Part shown: positions 30,457 to 38,034 of the stretch, in pieces
How the letters are laid out: each line of letters begins with the position of its first letter
Numbering within the stretch: the stretch's first letter is position 1
The notes under the pieces: model-generated
What the model was told of the DNA's origin: nothing
Databases searched by the model: none
Seen by the model: the letters and a program-made list of their open reading frames with translations, nothing else
Program-made: the position numbers and the translations under genes
NCBI GenBank assembly: GCA_013697735.1
Contig: JACCWH010000155.1
Location: forward strand, 1-38,034
Source of the DNA: Trueperaceae bacterium
Lineage (GTDB): Bacteria > Deinococcota > Deinococci > Deinococcales > Trueperaceae
Direction of reading: 5' to 3'
DNA: 38,034 nt

Positions 30457-32058
30457 ATGAGCCGCACCGCACCCACCCTTCGCGTGAGGGTCCATCCAGG
30501 CGACCTGTTGGCCGGCATCACGGTTGCAATGGTGCTGATCCCACAATCGCTGGCGTACGCCGAGATCGTCGGCGTGCCCCCCGTCCACGGGCTCGTCGCC
30601 GCCGTGGTCGCTCCGCTCGCCGCCTATTGGTTCGCCAGCCCCGCGATGCAGAGCGGCCCGACCGCCATGTCGGCCGTGCTCGTGTTCGGCGTGCTCGCCA
30701 CGCAGGTGGCGCCGGGAACGCCGGAGTACGCCGGCGCGGCTGCGCTCCTCGCGCTCCTCGTCGGCGTCATTCGCGTCACCCTCGGACTCGTCCGCTGGGG
30801 GGCACTCGCCTTCGCGCTTTCGCAACCCGTGCTCCGCGGGTTCACGCTCGGCGCCGCCGTTCTGATCGTCGCCTCACAGGTACCTGCGGCAGTCGGCCTG
30901 ATGCCCGAGGGCCTCCACCTCATCCCGCGCGCCCTTCGCGCGGTGCTGAGGATCGGCGCGTGGTCGCCCGGTGCGGTACTGGCGACGGTCGCGACGGTGG
31001 CGGGGATCCTGCTCCTGCGCCGAATCTCGCCGCTCATCCCCTCCGCCCTCGCCGCGGTGGTGGTCGGAACCGCGATCTCGGCCGCCTCGGACGGGATCCT
31101 CGGACCGACACTCGGGTCGATCACCCTCACGCTTCCGAGCCTGCGCCTCGACCTCCCCTGGTTGCTGGTTCCACAACTCGCGCTCGGCGCCGCGGTCATC
31201 GCGCTCGTGGGCTTCGCCGAGCCGACCGCCATCGCTCGCCGCTACGCGAAGTCGGGTCGACGCTGGGACCCGAACCGCGAGCTCCTCTCGCAAGGAGCCT
31301 CGAACATCGCGGCGGGACTCACCGGGGCGTTCCCCGTCGGTGGCTCGTTCTCCCGCTCCGCGCTCGGCCAGCTGGCGGGGGCCACGACGCGAACCGCCGG
31401 GCTCGTGACGGGCCTCGTCGCCCTCGTGCTGATGGGCGCCGCGCCGCTGCTCGCCGATCTGCCTCGCGCCGTGCTCGCCGGCGTCGTGATAGCAGCCGTG
31501 CTCGACCTGGTGCGTCTGCAACCGATGACGGACATCTGGCGGCTCGGCCGCACCCAGGCGAGCATCGCCTGGACCACGGCGGGACTCACGCTCCTGCTCG
31601 AGCCGCGGGTCGACCAGGCCGTCCTGGCCGGCGTCGCCGTAGCGGTGGTGCTCCATCTCCTGCGGCAGAGCCGACTCGACATCGAGCACCTCTCCGAAGG
31701 GGGCCGGCACCGCGTGACGGTCCAGGGCGTGCTCTGGTTCGCGTCGTCGGTGCACCTCGAAGACGCCATGCGCGCGCTCTGGGGACGCTACGACGACGAC
31801 CGGCCCTGGGTGATCGACCTACGGGGTGTGGGCCGCATCGATCTCGACGCCGCACTGTCGCTCGCCAACCTTCGCGATCAGGCGGCGGCGATCGGCCAGA
31901 CGCTCACGTTCGAGGGCCTCGACTCCCGCACCGTCGACCGGCTTGCCCGCATGCAGGCGCGGCGGGCGGTGGCGAGCGCCGAGGCGACCGCGGCGTCTGC
32001 CGTGGACGACGACGCTGGCACACCCGGAGCAGCGCCGACCACCACACCCGACGCGTGA
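30457..32058 (+). CDS. SulP-family anion transporter with C-terminal STAS domain
   Basis: This 533-residue protein has a membrane part of 10-14 helices beginning with the SulP signature LLAGITVAMVLIPQSLAYAEI, and AAVVAPLAAYWFASPAMQSGPTA-type helix 3 region, followed from about residue 420 by a cytoplasmic STAS domain (VQGVLWFASSVHLEDAM, WVIDLRGVGRIDLDAALSL). Such proteins carry sulfate, bicarbonate or other anions; the substrate cannot be told. The C-terminal tail is Ala/Thr-rich and disordered. TATGAT at 30440-30445 could be its -10 box, with 11 nt to the ATG. It converges on the methyltransferase gene with a 3-bp gap. Confidence 0.9.
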   Translation: MSRTAPTLRVRVHPGDLLAGITVAMVLIPQSLAYAEIVGVPPVHGLVAAVVAPLAAYWFASPAMQSGPTAMSAVLVFGVLATQVAPGTPEYAGAAALLALLVGVIRVTLGLVRWGALAFALSQPVLRGFTLGAAVLIVASQVPAAVGLMPEGLHLIPRALRAVLRIGAWSPGAVLATVATVAGILLLRRISPLIPSALAAVVVGTAISAASDGILGPTLGSITLTLPSLRLDLPWLLVPQLALGAAVIALVGFAEPTAIARRYAKSGRRWDPNRELLSQGASNIAAGLTGAFPVGGSFSRSALGQLAGATTRTAGLVTGLVALVLMGAAPLLADLPRAVLAGVVIAAVLDLVRLQPMTDIWRLGRTQASIAWTTAGLTLLLEPRVDQAVLAGVAVAVVLHLLRQSRLDIEHLSEGGRHRVTVQGVLWFASSVHLEDAMRALWGRYDDDRPWVIDLRGVGRIDLDAALSLANLRDQAAAIGQTLTFEGLDSRTVDRLARMQARRAVASAEATAASAVDDDAGTPGAAPTTTPDA

Positions 32059-32061
32059 AGG

Positions 32062-33216
32062 TCAGGTCGGTCTCACCCCGACCTGCTGCACCATGCCCGG
32101 CAGGGTGCGCATCCACACGGGGCGGCGGGGTAGCAGGCCGGCGTCCGCCTGCCAGGCGCGGAGCGTGCCGAGCGTGACCGTCCCCGCACCGCTCGTGGCG
32201 GCGAAATAGAGGTCGAGCAGGGCACCGAGGCGAGCGCGCCGCGCCTCGCGCGGGGTCGCGGGCCGCACGAGGTCCTGGATCACGTAGACGCCACCGGGCC
32301 GCAGCGCACGGGTGATGCGCGACGCCAGGTCGCGGTTGGCGGCGTCCGTCAGGTGGTGCGTGAGCTGCGAGACGAAGACCACGTCCCACACACCATCGCC
32401 GAGATCGGTCTCGAACACGTCACCGCGCTGGTGCCGTAGCCGATCGCCCAAGCCGTGGGCGCTCAGGAGCGGGGCCGAGGCGCTCACCGCATCGGGAAGG
32501 TCGAGCACGGTCGCGCGCAACGCCGGATGCCGTCGGAGGAGGGCGGCCGCGAAACGCCCGTGGGCGCCGCCGATGTCGAGGAGCACCGTCGCTCCGCGCG
32601 GGACGGGCGTGCGACGCCCCACCTCCGCTGCCGACACCTTCGACAACGCGTGCAAGCCGCGTTGATAGCGCTCCCAACCGCCAGCGCCCGCCTCGGTCAC
32701 CGCGCCCGGTCGATCGGAGCCCGGTCGATCGGAGCCCGGTCGATCGGCGGCAGGTCGATCGGCGCCGTCGACCACGTCGGGGCCGGCGAGCCGGTCGTGC
32801 ATGCCGAGCGCCTCGCCGGTGCTCACGAAGCGCTCGTAGTGCTCGACGAAGCGCCATTCGTCGAAGGAGAACAGGACCTTGTCGACCACTTCATCGGGGG
32901 AGGCGCGCGAGAGCCAGCGGCGCGAGGAGCGCGAGAGCGCGTAGTCTCGATCACCCGAGGGCACGAGGTAGCCCATGCCGGTGAGGGCGTCGAGCAGGCG
33001 GTGCGTCGGCTCGGGGGCGGTGCCGCACGACGCTGCCACCGCCGTGGCGTCGCCGGGCCCGGGTGTGAGCGCCTCGAAGACCCCGAGGCGCGTGGCGACC
33101 ATGAGTGTGCGGGCCCACGCGAACGCCAGGTGCGTGTCGACGAGCGGCGTAGGGATGCGGCCGGCTGCGAGCGCCAGCCACTCGAGCGGCGACTCGGCGA
33201 TCGTGCCGATCCTCAC
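32062..33216 (-). CDS. SAM-dependent O-methyltransferase-like protein with an internal 15-bp tandem repeat
   Basis: This 384-residue protein has the layout of the plant/bacterial small-molecule O-methyltransferase family (Methyltransf_2): an N-terminal winged-helix dimerisation domain (LMVATRLGVFEAL; TGMGYLV) and a C-terminal Rossmann fold with motif I VLLDIGGAHGRFAAALL and a downstream SQLTHHLTD segment containing a histidine pair in the catalytic region, then ALRPGGVYVIQDLV. Between the domains lies an insert of repeated Asp-Arg-Pro units coded by four 15-bp repeats. It starts at GTG 33216, 28 bp after korB, as the last gene of the operon. Acceptor unknown; small-molecule hydroxyl or thiol methylation is inferred. 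Confidence 0.8.
   Translation of the reverse strand: MRIGTIAESPLEWLALAAGRIPTPLVDTHLAFAWARTLMVATRLGVFEALTPGPGDATAVAASCGTAPEPTHRLLDALTGMGYLVPSGDRDYALSRSSRRWLSRASPDEVVDKVLFSFDEWRFVEHYERFVSTGEALGMHDRLAGPDVVDGADRPAADRPGSDRPGSDRPGAVTEAGAGGWERYQRGLHALSKVSAAEVGRRTPVPRGATVLLDIGGAHGRFAAALLRRHPALRATVLDLPDAVSASAPLLSAHGLGDRLRHQRGDVFETDLGDGVWDVVFVSQLTHHLTDAANRDLASRITRALRPGGVYVIQDLVRPATPREARRARLGALLDLYFAATSGAGTVTLGTLRAWQADAGLLPRRPVWMRTLPGMVQQVGVRPT
32707..32766. repeat. Four tandem 15-bp units inside the methyltransferase gene
   Basis: Units begin at 32707, 32722, 32737 and 32752 and share CGGTCGATCGG with a variable end (first base A in the last unit). They keep the frame and encode an Asp-Arg-Pro-Gly-Ser or Asp-Arg-Pro-Ala-Ala-like pentapeptide. 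The insert falls between predicted domains, so copy-number change would lengthen a linker without breaking the fold. Confidence 0.9.
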
Positions 33217-33244
33217 GGCCGTCCGATCGCTCGCCGCCGCACCA

Positions 33245-34282
33245 TCATCGGTAGCGCAGCATGACCCGCTCGAGCGCGTCGGGGGGCGGCCGCAGCCGCT
33301 CGTCCGGGAGCGAGGCGAGCGGCACGTCGCCCAGGTGCGCGGCTTCGGCGAACGACGGCCGCGTGGGGTCGTAGTGGATGAGGCCGGTGATGAACTCCTC
33401 GTCGCGCGTGGCGCGTAGCAGCCGCGCCACCGAGGCGTCGCGGTCGCGCGGATCGAAGTCGGACTCCAGTCGCCGGAGCTTCAACCGCGAGCCGTCGTGC
33501 AGGGGGACCACCGTCAACTCGCCCGGATCGCTCTCGTCGATCACGATCTCCTCCGCGACGGGCACCCAGCCGAGTTCCTGCAAGGGCTGCTCGTGATCGC
33601 GACCGTAGGCGTAGCTCTTCGGGCTCACGTCGTCGTTGTTGAACGCCACGCAGGGGCTGATGATGTCGAGGAAGGCCGTGCCGCGGTGCGAGAGTGCCGC
33701 CTTGAGGAGTTCGCGGACCTGCTTGGCGTCGCCGGCGAAGGAGCGCGCCACGAAGCCGCAGCCGGCCGCGATCGCCTCCAGGCAGAGGTCGATCGCCGGC
33801 AACTCGTTGTGTCCCGCGTACTTGAGATCGAGGCCTTCGTCGGCGGTGGCGGAGAACTGCCCCTTCGTGAGGCCGTACACGCCGTTGTTCTCGACGAGGT
33901 AGACCATGCGCACGTTACGTCTGAGCAGGTGCTTGAACCCGCCCATGCCGATCGAACCGGTATCGCCGTCGCCGGAGACGCCGATGGCGCGCAGCGTGTG
34001 GTTGCCCACGAGCGCGCCCGTGCCCACGGCGGCCATGCGGCCGTGCAAGGCATTGAACCCGTGCGACATGCCCAGGAAGTAGGCGGGAGACTTGCTCGAG
34101 CAGCCGATACCCGAGAGCTTGAGGATCTCGTGGGGCTTGAGCGCGAGTTCGAAGGCGACCTGGATGATCTGGTTGGCGATGGAATTGTGACCACAGCCGA
34201 CGCAGAGCGTGCTCGGAGTTCCACCGTACTCGGCCTTCGACAGGCCGGCGGCGTTCGAGAGAATCGTTCGGGCTCGGTCCAT
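33245..34282 (-). CDS. korB: 2-oxoacid:ferredoxin oxidoreductase, beta subunit
   Basis: This 345-residue subunit binds thiamine diphosphate: the motif GDGDTGSIGMGG followed by NNGVYGLTKGQ (GDG-x20+-NN) is intact, and CVGCGH with C61 supplies cysteines for the 4Fe-4S cluster. With korA it should oxidatively decarboxylate a 2-oxoacid to acyl-CoA, reducing ferredoxin. It lies 2 bp after the korA stop. Ferredoxin is not encoded nearby. Substrate is probably 2-oxoglutarate by similarity to the two-subunit enzymes of aerobic bacteria, but pyruvate is not excluded. Confidence 0.93.
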   Translation of the reverse strand: MDRARTILSNAAGLSKAEYGGTPSTLCVGCGHNSIANQIIQVAFELALKPHEILKLSGIGCSSKSPAYFLGMSHGFNALHGRMAAVGTGALVGNHTLRAIGVSGDGDTGSIGMGGFKHLLRRNVRMVYLVENNGVYGLTKGQFSATADEGLDLKYAGHNELPAIDLCLEAIAAGCGFVARSFAGDAKQVRELLKAALSHRGTAFLDIISPCVAFNNDDVSPKSYAYGRDHEQPLQELGWVPVAEEIVIDESDPGELTVVPLHDGSRLKLRRLESDFDPRDRDASVARLLRATRDEEFITGLIHYDPTRPSFAEAAHLGDVPLASLPDERLRPPPDALERVMLRYR

Positions 34283-34284
34283 GA

Positions 34285-36147
34285 TCAGGCCACCTCGGCT
34301 GCGATGCGGACGTAGGGCGCGAGGCGCTCTTCGATGAAGTCCGCCGTGAAGGGCATTCCGTCGAGGTACGCGACGGCCTCGATGCGGGGGGCGAGACCGG
34401 GGTATTCGGCTCGGATGATGCCGGTGAGCTGCGCGTCGCGATTCATCTCCACCACCACCACACGCTCGTGTGCCTCGATGAACGCCCGGACGTCGTCTGG
34501 GAGCGGCAGCGCGCGGAGCCGGAGGCTGGAGAAGCGTTCGCCGCGCCCCGCCATCCGGTCGCGCGCCTCTTCGATGGCGTACCGCGTGGTCCCGAAGGCG
34601 ATCACGCCGACGGACGCGCCCGCGACGACGTCGACCACGCTCGCGGGCATTGCGGCTCGCACGGTCTCGAACTTCCGCGCGAGACGCTCGGTATTGTCGA
34701 CCCAATCCTCGGAGCGCTCGCTGTAGACGGCCTGCGCATTGTGGCCCGTACCGCGTGCGAAGTAGGCGCTGGCGCGGTGCCGATTGCCGGGGAGGGTGCG
34801 GTACGTGACGCCGTCACCATCGACGTCGACGTAGCGAGCGAAGCCGTGCGCTTCGACGTCGTCGGCGGAGAGCACCTTGCCACGGCGGAGTGGGCGGTCG
34901 GGGTACTCGAAGGGCTTCCCCATCCAGTTGTTCATGCCGAGGTCGAGGTCGGAGAGGACGAAGACCGGCGTCTGCAGCTCGTCGGCGAGGTCGAGGGAGC
35001 GCCAGCCGAACTCGAAGCACTCTTCGATCGACGACGGGAAGAGGACGACGTGCTTCGTATCGCCGTGCCCAAGCGTGTAGACGAAGCCGAGGTCGCCCTG
35101 TCCCGTCCGGGTCGGCAGACCTGTCGAAGGGCCGACGCGCTGGATGTCCCAGATCACGCCCGGCACCTCGGCGTAGTAGCCGAGGCCTGCGAACTCGGCC
35201 ATCAGCGATATGCCGGGGCCGCTCGTCGCGGTGAGGGCGCGGGCGCCGGCGAAGCCGGCGCCGAGCACCATGCCGATGGCGGCGAGCTCGTCCTCGGACT
35301 GGATGACCGTGTAGGTCGGCTCGCCCGACTCGGTCCGACGGAGTTCGGGGAGGAAGTCACGCAGTGCGTCGATGAAGGAGGTCGAGGGCGTGATCGGGTA
35401 CCACGCGGCGACGCTCACACCGCCGAACACGCTGCCGAGCGCACCGGCTTCGTTCCCGGTCATGAGGATCAACCCGTCGGTCGCGCGCATCGGTTCGACA
35501 CGGTACGGATCGCGCTTCTCGAGCGAGGCTCGTGCCCACTCGAACGAGGCGCGGATCACGACCATGTTGGCGTCCACGAGCTTCTGACGACGGCCGAAGT
35601 GGATGGCGAGCGACTCCTCGACGGTGGCGAGCGGCACGTCGAGCAGGTGCGCCAAGACACCGACGTACGTCATGTTCGCGGCGTAGTCGCGGAGCTTCCC
35701 CTTCTGCTCGGTGACGCGGAGGAGATCCTTCACTGGCACCTCGTACGTGACGAGGTCGTCGCGCCGGACACTCGGTGCGAGGTCGGCGTTCACGACCGCC
35801 ACGCCACCCGCGGGAAGGGCCCGCAGGTCGGCGTCGATGGTCTGTTGGTTGTAGGCGACGAGGAAGCTCGGCTCCCGACGCGCCACGTGGCCGGCGGCGT
35901 CCACCCGGATGTGGTACCAGGTCGGCAGCCCCTGTATGTTCGACGGGAAGATGTTCTTGCCATGGACCGGTATCCCCATCGCGAAGAACGACCGGAGCAG
36001 CGCAAGGTTGGCCGTTTGCGACCCGGTGCCGTTGACCGTGGCGACCACCAGTGCGAGCTCGTTCACGATGGGCGAGAGCTCGTTCACGGCGGCGGCCGGC
36101 TGTCCGTCGCGCACGGGCCCACGCCCCTCGGTCGCGTCGGACGTCAT
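34285..36147 (-). CDS. korA: 2-oxoacid:ferredoxin oxidoreductase, fused gamma-alpha subunit
   Basis: This 620-residue protein has a gamma domain at the N-terminus (about 30-200, with NGTGSQTANLALLRSFFAMG and IPVHGKNIFPSNIQGLPTW) fused to the alpha (pyrimidine-binding) domain that contains YPITPSTSF at 250-255 onward, SEDELAAIGMVLGAGFAGA and TSGPGISLMAEFAGL. Fused gamma-alpha subunits mark the two-subunit aerobic-type 2-oxoglutarate or related oxidoreductases. Its ATG overlaps the stop of the RraA-family gene (ATGA, 36147-36144), a sign of translational coupling. A 30-residue polar leader precedes the fold, so an internal start is conceivable. Confidence 0.93.
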   Translation of the reverse strand: MTSDATEGRGPVRDGQPAAAVNELSPIVNELALVVATVNGTGSQTANLALLRSFFAMGIPVHGKNIFPSNIQGLPTWYHIRVDAAGHVARREPSFLVAYNQQTIDADLRALPAGGVAVVNADLAPSVRRDDLVTYEVPVKDLLRVTEQKGKLRDYAANMTYVGVLAHLLDVPLATVEESLAIHFGRRQKLVDANMVVIRASFEWARASLEKRDPYRVEPMRATDGLILMTGNEAGALGSVFGGVSVAAWYPITPSTSFIDALRDFLPELRRTESGEPTYTVIQSEDELAAIGMVLGAGFAGARALTATSGPGISLMAEFAGLGYYAEVPGVIWDIQRVGPSTGLPTRTGQGDLGFVYTLGHGDTKHVVLFPSSIEECFEFGWRSLDLADELQTPVFVLSDLDLGMNNWMGKPFEYPDRPLRRGKVLSADDVEAHGFARYVDVDGDGVTYRTLPGNRHRASAYFARGTGHNAQAVYSERSEDWVDNTERLARKFETVRAAMPASVVDVVAGASVGVIAFGTTRYAIEEARDRMAGRGERFSSLRLRALPLPDDVRAFIEAHERVVVVEMNRDAQLTGIIRAEYPGLAPRIEAVAYLDGMPFTADFIEERLAPYVRIAAEVA

Positions 36148-36818
36148 ACGTGCCCGAACCGTTCGAGCATCTCGGCGGCGCTCATGCCCTCTTCGGAGAG
36201 GGCGCGCGCCTCGGCCTCGGCGGTGAGGATCGCTTCCGCCCGCGCCAGCACGTCGTCGATGCGGTCTCGTTCGATCACGACGACGCCGTCGTGATCACCG
36301 AAGACGAAGTCGCCGGGCCGAACGGTGACCGGTTCGCCGTAGGCCGCCGGCAGCGTGACCGGCACGCCGACGTCGGTCACGCGCCACCGTCCGAGGCCCT
36401 GGAGCGGTGTGACGAAGCGGGCGTACACCGGGAAGCCGGTGGTGTCTATGGCGTGCACGTCTCGAATGCCGCCGTCGACGACGGCGCCGCGGCAGCCGCG
36501 CCCCTGCATGGTGGCCGCGATGAGGTCGCCGAAGAGGCAGTATCGACCGGCGTCCGTGCCAGCCCAGACGGCAACGCTGTCGGCGGGTAGCGCGTCGGCA
36601 GCGGCGAGCTTCGCTCGGTCGGGACCTTCGAAGCGCTCCTGGCGACCGACGATGGTGGCGGCGAATCCTGCCAGGGGCGAATCGACGGCGCTCACCGGCC
36701 GTAGGTCGGGGTGGAGGGCCCGGGGCTCCCAGCCTCGCTCGTCGTAGACGTCGCAGACGACGGCGCTCTGGAGACGGGAGAACCGTTCGACGACGTCGGC
36801 ACGGCGGTGGTCGTCCAT
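36144..36818 (-). CDS. RraA-family protein (HMG/CHA aldolase-like)
   Basis: This 224-residue protein belongs to the RraA-like fold family, which includes 4-hydroxy-4-methyl-2-oxoglutarate aldolase, oxaloacetate decarboxylases and the RNase E regulator RraA. Substrate and metal-site residues of the aldolase branch are seen: GDLIA at 97-101 and GAVVDGGIRDV with R119 and D120. The family's metal-dependent members cleave 2-oxoacids to pyruvate. Nothing here points to RNase E control; the flanking 2-oxoacid genes favour an enzyme. It starts 4 bp after the DHDPS-family stop and overlaps korA. The earlier misannotation of this family as menaquinone methyltransferases should be avoided. Confidence 0.82.
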   Translation of the reverse strand: MDDHRRADVVERFSRLQSAVVCDVYDERGWEPRALHPDLRPVSAVDSPLAGFAATIVGRQERFEGPDRAKLAAADALPADSVAVWAGTDAGRYCLFGDLIAATMQGRGCRGAVVDGGIRDVHAIDTTGFPVYARFVTPLQGLGRWRVTDVGVPVTLPAAYGEPVTVRPGDFVFGDHDGVVVIERDRIDDVLARAEAILTAEAEARALSEEGMSAAEMLERFGHV

Positions 36819-36822
36819 CCCC

Positions 36823-37776
36823 TCAGAGTTTGGCACTCGCCACCTCCGCAGACGCCTGCACGGGCATCGGGGCCGCTCGTGCCACGTCGAGACCGCAGCG
36901 CTCGGCCACGCGCTCGAACTCTCGGATCGTGGCGTCGTCGATGCTCGGGTGGGGCGGGCGTACGGTCGCGGTGCCGAAGACGCCGCGGCGAACGAAGACG
37001 TGCTTGCGCAGCGCGACCCCGATGCCGGGCTGGAACTCGTAGCGGATGAGCGGGAGGACGCGGTCGAAGACCTCGCTCGCCCCCGCGGTGTCACCGGCCG
37101 CGTAGCGGCGGTAGATGTCGACGAGCACCTCGGGGAAGGCGAGGCCGGTCATCACTCCGGCGGCGCCGTTCTCGAGCTCCTCGAGCACCCACTGGCCGCC
37201 GAGCCCGCCGAAGATGCCGATGCGGCCGGGAGCGCCGGCGAGCACGCGACGCTGCTTGACGAGCACGGGCGGATCCTCGGCCTTGAGGTACGGCGTGACG
37301 CCGTCCACGGCGAGGGCGGCGATGAGATCCGCCGGTATGGTGATGCCGAACTCGCTCGGATAGTCGTGGATGGCGACCGGGAGCGCCGTGGCGGAGGCCA
37401 CCGCCCGGTAATGCCGGTCGAGCACGGCGGCAGTGCCCGGGGCGATCGGTGCGACGAAGACGGCGTCGGCGCCGTGCGCCTCCGCCTCCTGGACCTGTTC
37501 GATCGCTCCTGCGGTACCGAAGGCTCGGACGCCGACCCACACGATGATGCGCCCGCTCGCCCGCGTGACCGCGGTCCGCATCACGTCGCGTCGTTCGGCT
37601 CCGGTGAGCTTGTGCGCCTCCCCCATGAAACCGAGGATCGCGATCCCGTCGACCCCGGCGTCGACCTGATGGTCGACGAGCCGTTCGACGCTCTCCAGAT
37701 CGAGGGACCCGTCCTCCAGGAACGGGGTCGGGACGATGGGGTGGACGCCGGTGAAGGGGGGTGGGGAGGTCGCCAT
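36823..37776 (-). CDS. DHDPS/N-acetylneuraminate lyase-family protein (class I aldolase or dehydratase)
   Basis: This 317-residue TIM-barrel protein has the Schiff-base lysine K165 (TPYLKAEDPP) and the catalytic tyrosine Y139 (HDYPSEFG) of the family, which forms or breaks C-C bonds with pyruvate or dehydrates sugar acids. The substrate loop GTTGE of true dihydrodipicolinate synthases is replaced by GFMGE at about 49-53, so it is unlikely to be dapA. Start ATG 37776 is preceded by TAGCGT ending 5 nt upstream; an earlier frame from 37824 is non-coding. It heads the operon with the RraA-family gene and korAB, hence a role in making a 2-oxoacid is inferred. Candidate substrates include aldonic or hydroxy-2-oxo acids. 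Confidence 0.82.
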   Translation of the reverse strand: MATSPPPFTGVHPIVPTPFLEDGSLDLESVERLVDHQVDAGVDGIAILGFMGEAHKLTGAERRDVMRTAVTRASGRIIVWVGVRAFGTAGAIEQVQEAEAHGADAVFVAPIAPGTAAVLDRHYRAVASATALPVAIHDYPSEFGITIPADLIAALAVDGVTPYLKAEDPPVLVKQRRVLAGAPGRIGIFGGLGGQWVLEELENGAAGVMTGLAFPEVLVDIYRRYAAGDTAGASEVFDRVLPLIRYEFQPGIGVALRKHVFVRRGVFGTATVRPPHPSIDDATIREFERVAERCGLDVARAAPMPVQASAEVASAKL

Positions 37777-37838
37777 GCCCAACGCTACACCCCCCGACGC
37801 TCCTTCGACGCACTGTCCCGACATCGTTGCGGAGCCGA

Positions 37839-38034
37839 TCAGGCTTCGATCACGATGTCCTCGTCGTCGCTTCCTGCGCCGCTCGCGGGCGTGGCGCCAC
37901 TCGCCAAACGCGCCATCACCAGATCACGCACCTCCTGCGCCACCTCCGGCCGCTCCCCCAAGAACTCCGCCGCCTTCTCCTTCCCCTGCCCCAACCGCAA
38001 CTCACCGAACGAGAACCACGACCCACTCTTCTGC
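37839..38034 (-). CDS. recA: RecA recombinase, C-terminal part (rest outside window)
   Basis: Only the last 64 codons lie in the window, from the edge to the TGA at 37841-37839. The sequence KSGSWFSFGELRLGQGKEKA is the conserved KSGxWF/YS-x-GxxRxGQG segment near the end of the RecA core, followed by a helix (ERPEVAQEVRDLVMARL) and an acidic tail ending SDDEDIVIEA. The GQGKEK..ERPE..QE.RD.VMA pattern resembles Deinococcus RecA from memory. It is 62 bp upstream of the lyase gene on the same strand, with that gene's own promoter box in between. Confidence 0.95.
   Translation of the reverse strand, partial: QKSGSWFSFGELRLGQGKEKAAEFLGERPEVAQEVRDLVMARLASGATPASGAGSDDEDIVIEA

Follow-up and report, generated by a model that had tools for sequence, protein, structure and literature searches.

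Does a compact row of genes for 2-oxoacid enzymes mark a metabolic pathway, or is it an operon that was assembled locally? This question is raised by a locus in contig JACCWH010000155.1 (GenBank assembly GCA_013697735.1) of a Trueperaceae bacterium, a metagenome-assembled genome (MAG) of the Deinococcota whose nearest named relatives in a KorA search are also Trueperaceae. The stretch analysed, called here the window, comprises positions 1 to 38,034 (38,034 nucleotides). It includes five open reading frames (ORFs), all on the minus strand, in the order dihydrodipicolinate synthase (DHDPS)-like lyase, RraA-like protein, KorA, KorB, and O-methyltransferase (OMT). An earlier note on this DNA proposed that the five products could form a degradation route ending in acyl-CoA and reduced ferredoxin. 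This proposal is weakened because korAB is widespread alone, rraA was probably lost separately, and the lyase does not have the catalytic tyrosine; furthermore, relatives of the lyase and RraA occur in catabolic clusters without Kor. We consider it likely that korAB, standing alone downstream of recA, came first and that the other genes of the row accreted around it in one lineage. Rather than pointing to a new degradation pathway, the row probably represents an ordinary local operon, and the data do not require a single dedicated pathway. Close spacing in one genome can mimic a pathway; here, the family record reveals an old pair with later neighbours.

The elements of the locus are as follows.

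37839..38034, minus strand: recA C-terminal part, translation SGSWFSFGELRLGQGKEKAAEFLGERPEV...DIVIEA*, stop TGA at 37841-37839
37782..37789, minus strand: P1, putative leaderless extended -10 box TG-TAGCGT, TGTAGCGT, 5 nt before the lyase ATG
36823..37776, minus strand: DHDPS/NAL-family lyase, Tyr-less, K-x-E type (PF00701, 1.3e-34)
36827..36835, minus strand: P2 site, apparently degraded extended -10-like box, contained in the 3′-terminal part of the lyase gene
36144..36818, minus strand: RraA/HMG-CHA-aldolase-like protein (PF03737, 6.7e-28; 3noj, 9.1e-18)
34285..36147, minus strand: KorA, fused gamma-alpha 2-oxoacid:ferredoxin oxidoreductase subunit (POR + POR_N, TIGR03710)
33245..34282, minus strand: KorB, TPP/Fe-S beta subunit (PF02775, TPP_enzyme_C; TIGR02177 match below cut-off)
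32062..33216, minus strand: SAM-dependent OMT, Methyltransf_2 type, GTG start (PF00891, 6.7e-17; PF08100, Dimerisation, 2.4e-10)
30457..32058, plus strand: SulP-type permease, outside the row (PF00916, 1.5e-68)

The single direction and the gaps described in the earlier note were exact: 4 bp between the lyase and RraA genes, an ATGA overlap between those of RraA and KorA, 2 bp between korA and korB, and 28 bp between korB and the OMT gene. The family assignments were also borne out by profile matches (PF00701, PF03737, POR/POR_N, TIGR03710, Methyltransf_2). The OMT has MmcR (3gwz) as its best solved-structure match, and its gene is convergent with that of the SulP permease, 3 bp apart. The presence of recA directly upstream of the row had been missed. 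The last 196 bases of the window are the recA 3′ end, on the same strand and 62 bp upstream of the lyase gene, and a complete recA was found at the matching place in relatives.

The distribution of the row was read from the DNA around korAB, and several of the MAGs are fragmented. Of 61 related genomes, 53 have a KorA homologue, and the genome studied here has a single copy. All five genes are in order in six genomes belonging to genera g1 and g12 (G000, G001, G012, G026, G034, and G110; a contig end cuts the OMT gene in G001). Another five genomes, all from genus g16 (G016, G023, G027, G031, and G035), have the lyase, KorA, KorB, and OMT genes without rraA, the contig of G031 displaying lyase and KorA only. 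In one more, G030 (g12), the end of rraA, korAB, and the OMT gene are together while the lyase gene is found on a separate contig beside unrelated genes. In contrast, on the available contigs of 19 other Trueperaceae, nine of which have at least 3 kb upstream, korAB stands without any of the three adjoining genes. A single clade, made up of three genera, accounts for every case in which the lyase, rraA, or OMT gene adjoins korAB. Three genomes, G003, G006, and G008, have recA upstream of korAB but lack the other genes there, and two more, G015 and G017, with weaker recA matches, probably do so too. Comparison of the loci therefore indicates that recA-korAB is the older arrangement and that only korA-korB, found near recA in other genera as well, is ancestral. 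In the KorAB tree the five-gene and four-gene genomes are each monophyletic (100% support) and are sister groups (98/96). Strong matches to the lyase were confined to Trueperaceae in a search of 111 Deinococcota genomes, and an OMT homologue (50-60% identity) is present in G003 on a contig other than that of korAB. The lyase, an RraA-type metal-dependent oxo-acid aldolase/decarboxylase, and the OMT would thus have joined korAB once, in the ancestor of the three Trueperaceae genera.

The absence of rraA from g16 seems to be secondary. In G027, part of the interval between the lyase gene and korA matches rraA in its 3′-terminal portion, stop included, with scores of 30-34 compared to maxima of 24-29 for shuffled sequences (five references, 0 of 500 shuffles with each). 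This remnant suggests that the common ancestor of the three genera probably had rraA and that the gene was deleted in g16 while the other genes stayed. Short ORFs were also observed at the rraA position, between the lyase gene and korA, at loci L037 and L038; the terminal peptide of the one in G027 resembles the RraA C-terminus, and this ORF is likely a deletion remnant.

The earlier note placed the lyase and RraA in families that release pyruvate or 2-oxoacids. While family membership holds, the active-site residues of the lyase weaken the case for pyruvate release. Its closest solved structures are 3dz1 (1.9e-42), followed by L-KDA dehydratase (3fkk/7c0c). The Schiff-base residue K165 is kept, E167 is located two residues on, and H137 occupies the position of the aldolase tyrosine. 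K165, E167, and the Tyr-to-His change were found in 20 of 20 Trueperaceae homologues of the lyase subfamily in a motif alignment in which the E. coli DapA row served solely as a guide to where Tyr and TTGE lie. The tyrosine is the base leading to cleavage in DHDPS/NAL-family aldolases, and Glu173, a catalytic base of L-KDA dehydratase that corresponds to E167, is not conserved among other DHDPS/NAL enzymes (PMC9795676). The lyase and L-KDA dehydratase both have the Schiff-base Lys and the Glu of the K-x-E motif, and both lack the catalytic Tyr. However, they are only about 30% identical, their substrate loops differ (GFMGE in the lyase), the Tyr position is taken by His in the lyase and by Gln in the dehydratase, and GGLGG is found in the lyase where the dehydratase has its second base, Glu200. 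Since this second base is missing, the lyase looks dehydratase-like and its identity as L-KDA dehydratase is not established. The uncharacterised 'dihydrodipicolinate synthase' 3dz1 has the motifs LG[FI][ML]GEAxKL, DYP, K-x-ED, and RYE-Q in common with the lyase, but it has Gln instead of His at the Tyr position. The probable reaction of the lyase is dehydration or some other conversion of a 2-keto-3-deoxy-type acid, not classical aldol cleavage. An AlphaFold model (three sequences) had a mean pLDDT of 60.7, too weak for placing the active site, and from a DHDPS tree with distant outgroups, in which long branches meet, only the monophyly of the row copies was used. A role as DapA was ruled out by the TIGR00674 score (100.9 vs 206.15 bits), the Tyr-to-His change, and the presence of FMGE instead of TTGE. 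The genome has no DapA above the TIGR00674 cut-off, the best match being the window's own lyase at 100.9 bits, which is consistent with lysine being made by another route.

In an alignment, the RraA-like proteins of all six operons have the D-X20-R-D metal/catalytic residues seen in 3NOJ, the Pseudomonas putida F1 HMG/CHA aldolase. They also belong to its fold family, and the P. putida enzyme decarboxylates oxaloacetate too (PMC5065237). On the other hand, the NCBIfam ligK/PRK09262 models match the RraA of the row far below cut-off (86 vs 304.5 bits for ligK, TIGR02798), and the row does not include aromatic ring-cleavage genes. The protein probably cleaves or decarboxylates a C4-substituted 2-oxoacid.

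Homologues of both proteins were also found in other surroundings. Those of the lyase in Alphaproteobacteria (about 40% identity) sit with transporters, amidohydrolases, Asp/Glu racemases, and SDR genes in amide/hydantoin-type clusters that have no Kor and no RraA; conversely, the Trueperaceae row does not have their transporter, hydrolase, and SDR partners. RraA homologues on Deinococcus plasmids accompany peptide transporters, DUF885, SDR, and aminopeptidase genes, and Trueperaceae homologues away from Kor are near SDR, amidohydrolase, racemase, M20 peptidase, or PdxA/sugar-acid-kinase type genes. No Kor was found near lyase or RraA homologues in the loci read from these three groups.

These observations bear on the proposed dedicated route, in which the lyase and RraA would turn a hydroxy or keto acid into 2-oxoacids that KorAB would convert to acyl-CoA and reduced ferredoxin, with the OMT acting on an intermediate. 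The short gaps, the common direction, and the catabolic clusters with transporters and hydrolases in which lyase and RraA relatives are found elsewhere speak for such a route, as does the product of the characterised enzyme closest to the lyase, 2-oxoglutarate semialdehyde, which is two steps removed from the product of a Kor substrate. But transporter, hydrolase, regulator, and SDR genes, which accompany the lyase or RraA elsewhere, are all missing from the row, rraA was lost without loss of the other genes, korAB often stands by itself in the family, and the aldolase Tyr is missing from the lyase. We therefore regard a dedicated route as unlikely. The earlier note did not know the gene combination as a described pathway, and we found no description of it in the literature searched; a search for the RraA family together with the DHDPS family returned no papers.

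The KorAB pair itself shows the expected architecture, a gamma-alpha fusion (POR + POR_N) with an adjacent beta subunit. KorA scores 506.8 bits against TIGR03710, above the cut-off of 482.75, and has YPITP at residue 250; KorB scores 187 bits against TIGR02177, below the cut-off of 261.9. The characterised counterpart is KorAB of M. tuberculosis (Rv2455c-Rv2454c), an aerotolerant 2-oxoglutarate:ferredoxin oxidoreductase for which a CXGCG-Xn-GDG-Xn-C motif in the beta subunit and a GXXGXG CoA motif in the gamma domain were reported (PMC2773412). Both systems have a fused gamma-alpha KorA and an adjacent korB, and the beta motif is also found here (CVGCG at 27, GDG at 104, and C at 167). In contrast, GXXGXG was not found in the gamma domain of the Trueperaceae KorA, which has TVNGTGSQTAN at that place, and no lyase, RraA, or OMT gene was described in the M. 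tuberculosis operon (PMC2773412). The NG(T/S)GS variant, within KorA residues 35-48, is common to every close homologue recovered, whether from Deinococcota, Chloroflexota, Planctomycetota, or Actinomycetes (L035-L131). The motif comparison thus defines NG(T/S)GS KorA as a distinct and widespread Kor type, for which no substrate assignment was found. M. tuberculosis has a KGD/OGDH-type protein in addition to KorAB and, likewise, the genome of the window carries the E1 of 2-oxoglutarate dehydrogenase (OGDH; 1065 bits). KorAB would convert a 2-oxoacid to acyl-CoA with ferredoxin, by oxidative decarboxylation, alongside this separate enzyme. A role as a substitute for a missing OGDH was ruled out by the presence of the OGDH E1.

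All of this could also be taken as an undescribed 2-oxoacid module, expressed from a leaderless mRNA behind recA, where the Tyr-less K-x-E lyase and the HMG-aldolase-type RraA either supply the atypical NGTGSQ-type KorAB or clear inhibitors from it. We hold this to be quite unlikely, although a true module of this kind would provide the first context for two poorly understood groups, the Tyr-less K-x-E DHDPS homologues and the stand-alone RraA-like proteins.

The expression signals make it doubtful that the row has only the single promoter before the lyase gene that had been proposed. A promoter-like box is indeed found there. All 12 clade genomes have a TAnnnT hexamer whose first base is at -11 or -12 relative to the lyase ATG (background of 7.1e-4 per position, the genomes being related and not independent). 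A generic sigma-70 and terminator scan detected no site before the lyase gene, and P1 emerged only by comparison. In its sequence and position it matches the leaderless -10-motif of Deinococcus-Thermus, found some 6-7 bp ahead of the ORF (PMC12340547), and it is the most likely site of transcription initiation. However, sister species have a second conserved extended -10-like box, P2 (TGnCAnAAT), which immediately precedes rraA in four of them (G001, G026, G034, and G110) and korA in three that lack rraA (G016, G023, and G031). Across 117 kb of clade DNA, TGnCAnAAT has six occurrences, every one at the junction between the lyase gene and the next gene, and there is a further one in G110 (L152). 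The site in the window reads TGCCAAACT (TG-C-CAAACT vs TG-n-CAnAAT in the sisters) within the extended 3′ end of the lyase gene and looks degraded. The 4-bp gap between the lyase and RraA genes was found only in this genome, the relatives having 63-102 bp. Because the sisters carry the second box and longer gaps, the "one promoter" and the 4-bp gap are partly peculiarities of this species. An ancestral second start at P2, before rraA, would have degraded here, and the row now probably depends mainly on P1. Translational coupling of rraA and korA, as previously suggested, is probable in this species in view of the ATGA overlap, which recurs only in G012, one of five sister genomes displaying that junction. 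The spacing between korA and korB is short throughout, and in the clade a clear korB ribosome-binding site lies in the korA end (a strong GGAGGTGG in sister species and GAGGTGG in the window); their coupling is probable as well. The two boxes, together with the likely rraA deletion that left a box before korA in some sister species, offer a test case for leaderless expression in Deinococcota. When a candidate leaderless start was defined as TAnnnT located 5-6 nt before the ATG or GTG of an ORF of at least 90 amino acids, six others were observed in the window, at 1678, 12994, 24146, 26434, 28634 (SprT-like gene), and 3998.

The conserved promoter box and the short same-strand spacing suggest co-expression of at least some of the genes. 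They stand against the idea that there is no functional relation at all and that the neighbourhood was kept merely through the recent origin of the clade and the collinearity of its chromosomes in this region. This idea, which we find very unlikely, draws on the SulP, MFS, and SprT genes, convergent or divergent, that are kept beside the row in the same order and in the same genomes. Since these unrelated and oppositely oriented neighbours are equally conserved, gene order reflects general collinearity and cannot alone support a pathway. Metabolite repair, in which the lyase and RraA would be accessory to Kor by clearing by-products resembling 4-hydroxy- or 4-hydroxy-4-methyl-2-oxoglutarate that inhibit or clog 2-oxoacid oxidation, is highly improbable. 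In its favour, RraA has the residues of an HMG/CHA aldolase, an enzyme type with oxaloacetate decarboxylase activity too, and the genes are beside a central-metabolism enzyme and not in a transporter-bearing catabolic cluster. Against it, the lyase and RraA genes are not beside Kor in most relatives, rraA is dispensable in one genus, and no paper connecting parapyruvate with oxoglutarate dehydrogenase turned up in the literature search. By-products of this kind may inhibit the oxidation of 2-oxoacids.

Several points weigh against accretion around korAB into an ordinary operon. The row has been kept in same-strand order through considerable divergence (KorA identity 70-81%), which could reflect selection for co-expression, and all three enzyme types handle 2-oxoacids; a link between them through these compounds is possible. 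Some of the absences in fragmented MAGs could be assembly gaps, and the split in G030 might stem from an error in binning or assembly. Evidence for an rraA remnant is strong in a single genome, with no more than a suggestion of one in G035, and the promoter boxes are matches at the nucleotide level only.

Two further observations concern Kor outside the clade. In several Chloroflexota-type loci (L081, L084-L088, and L117) a second, more distant KorAB (28-30% KorA identity) is directly upstream of the NG(T/S)GS type, giving two Kor enzymes in tandem. In addition, a cluster of FCD/GntR-type regulator genes is near korA in 30 of the 56 loci L076-L131 (e.g., L090:7186-7887, just upstream), and these proteins are candidate regulators of this Kor type.

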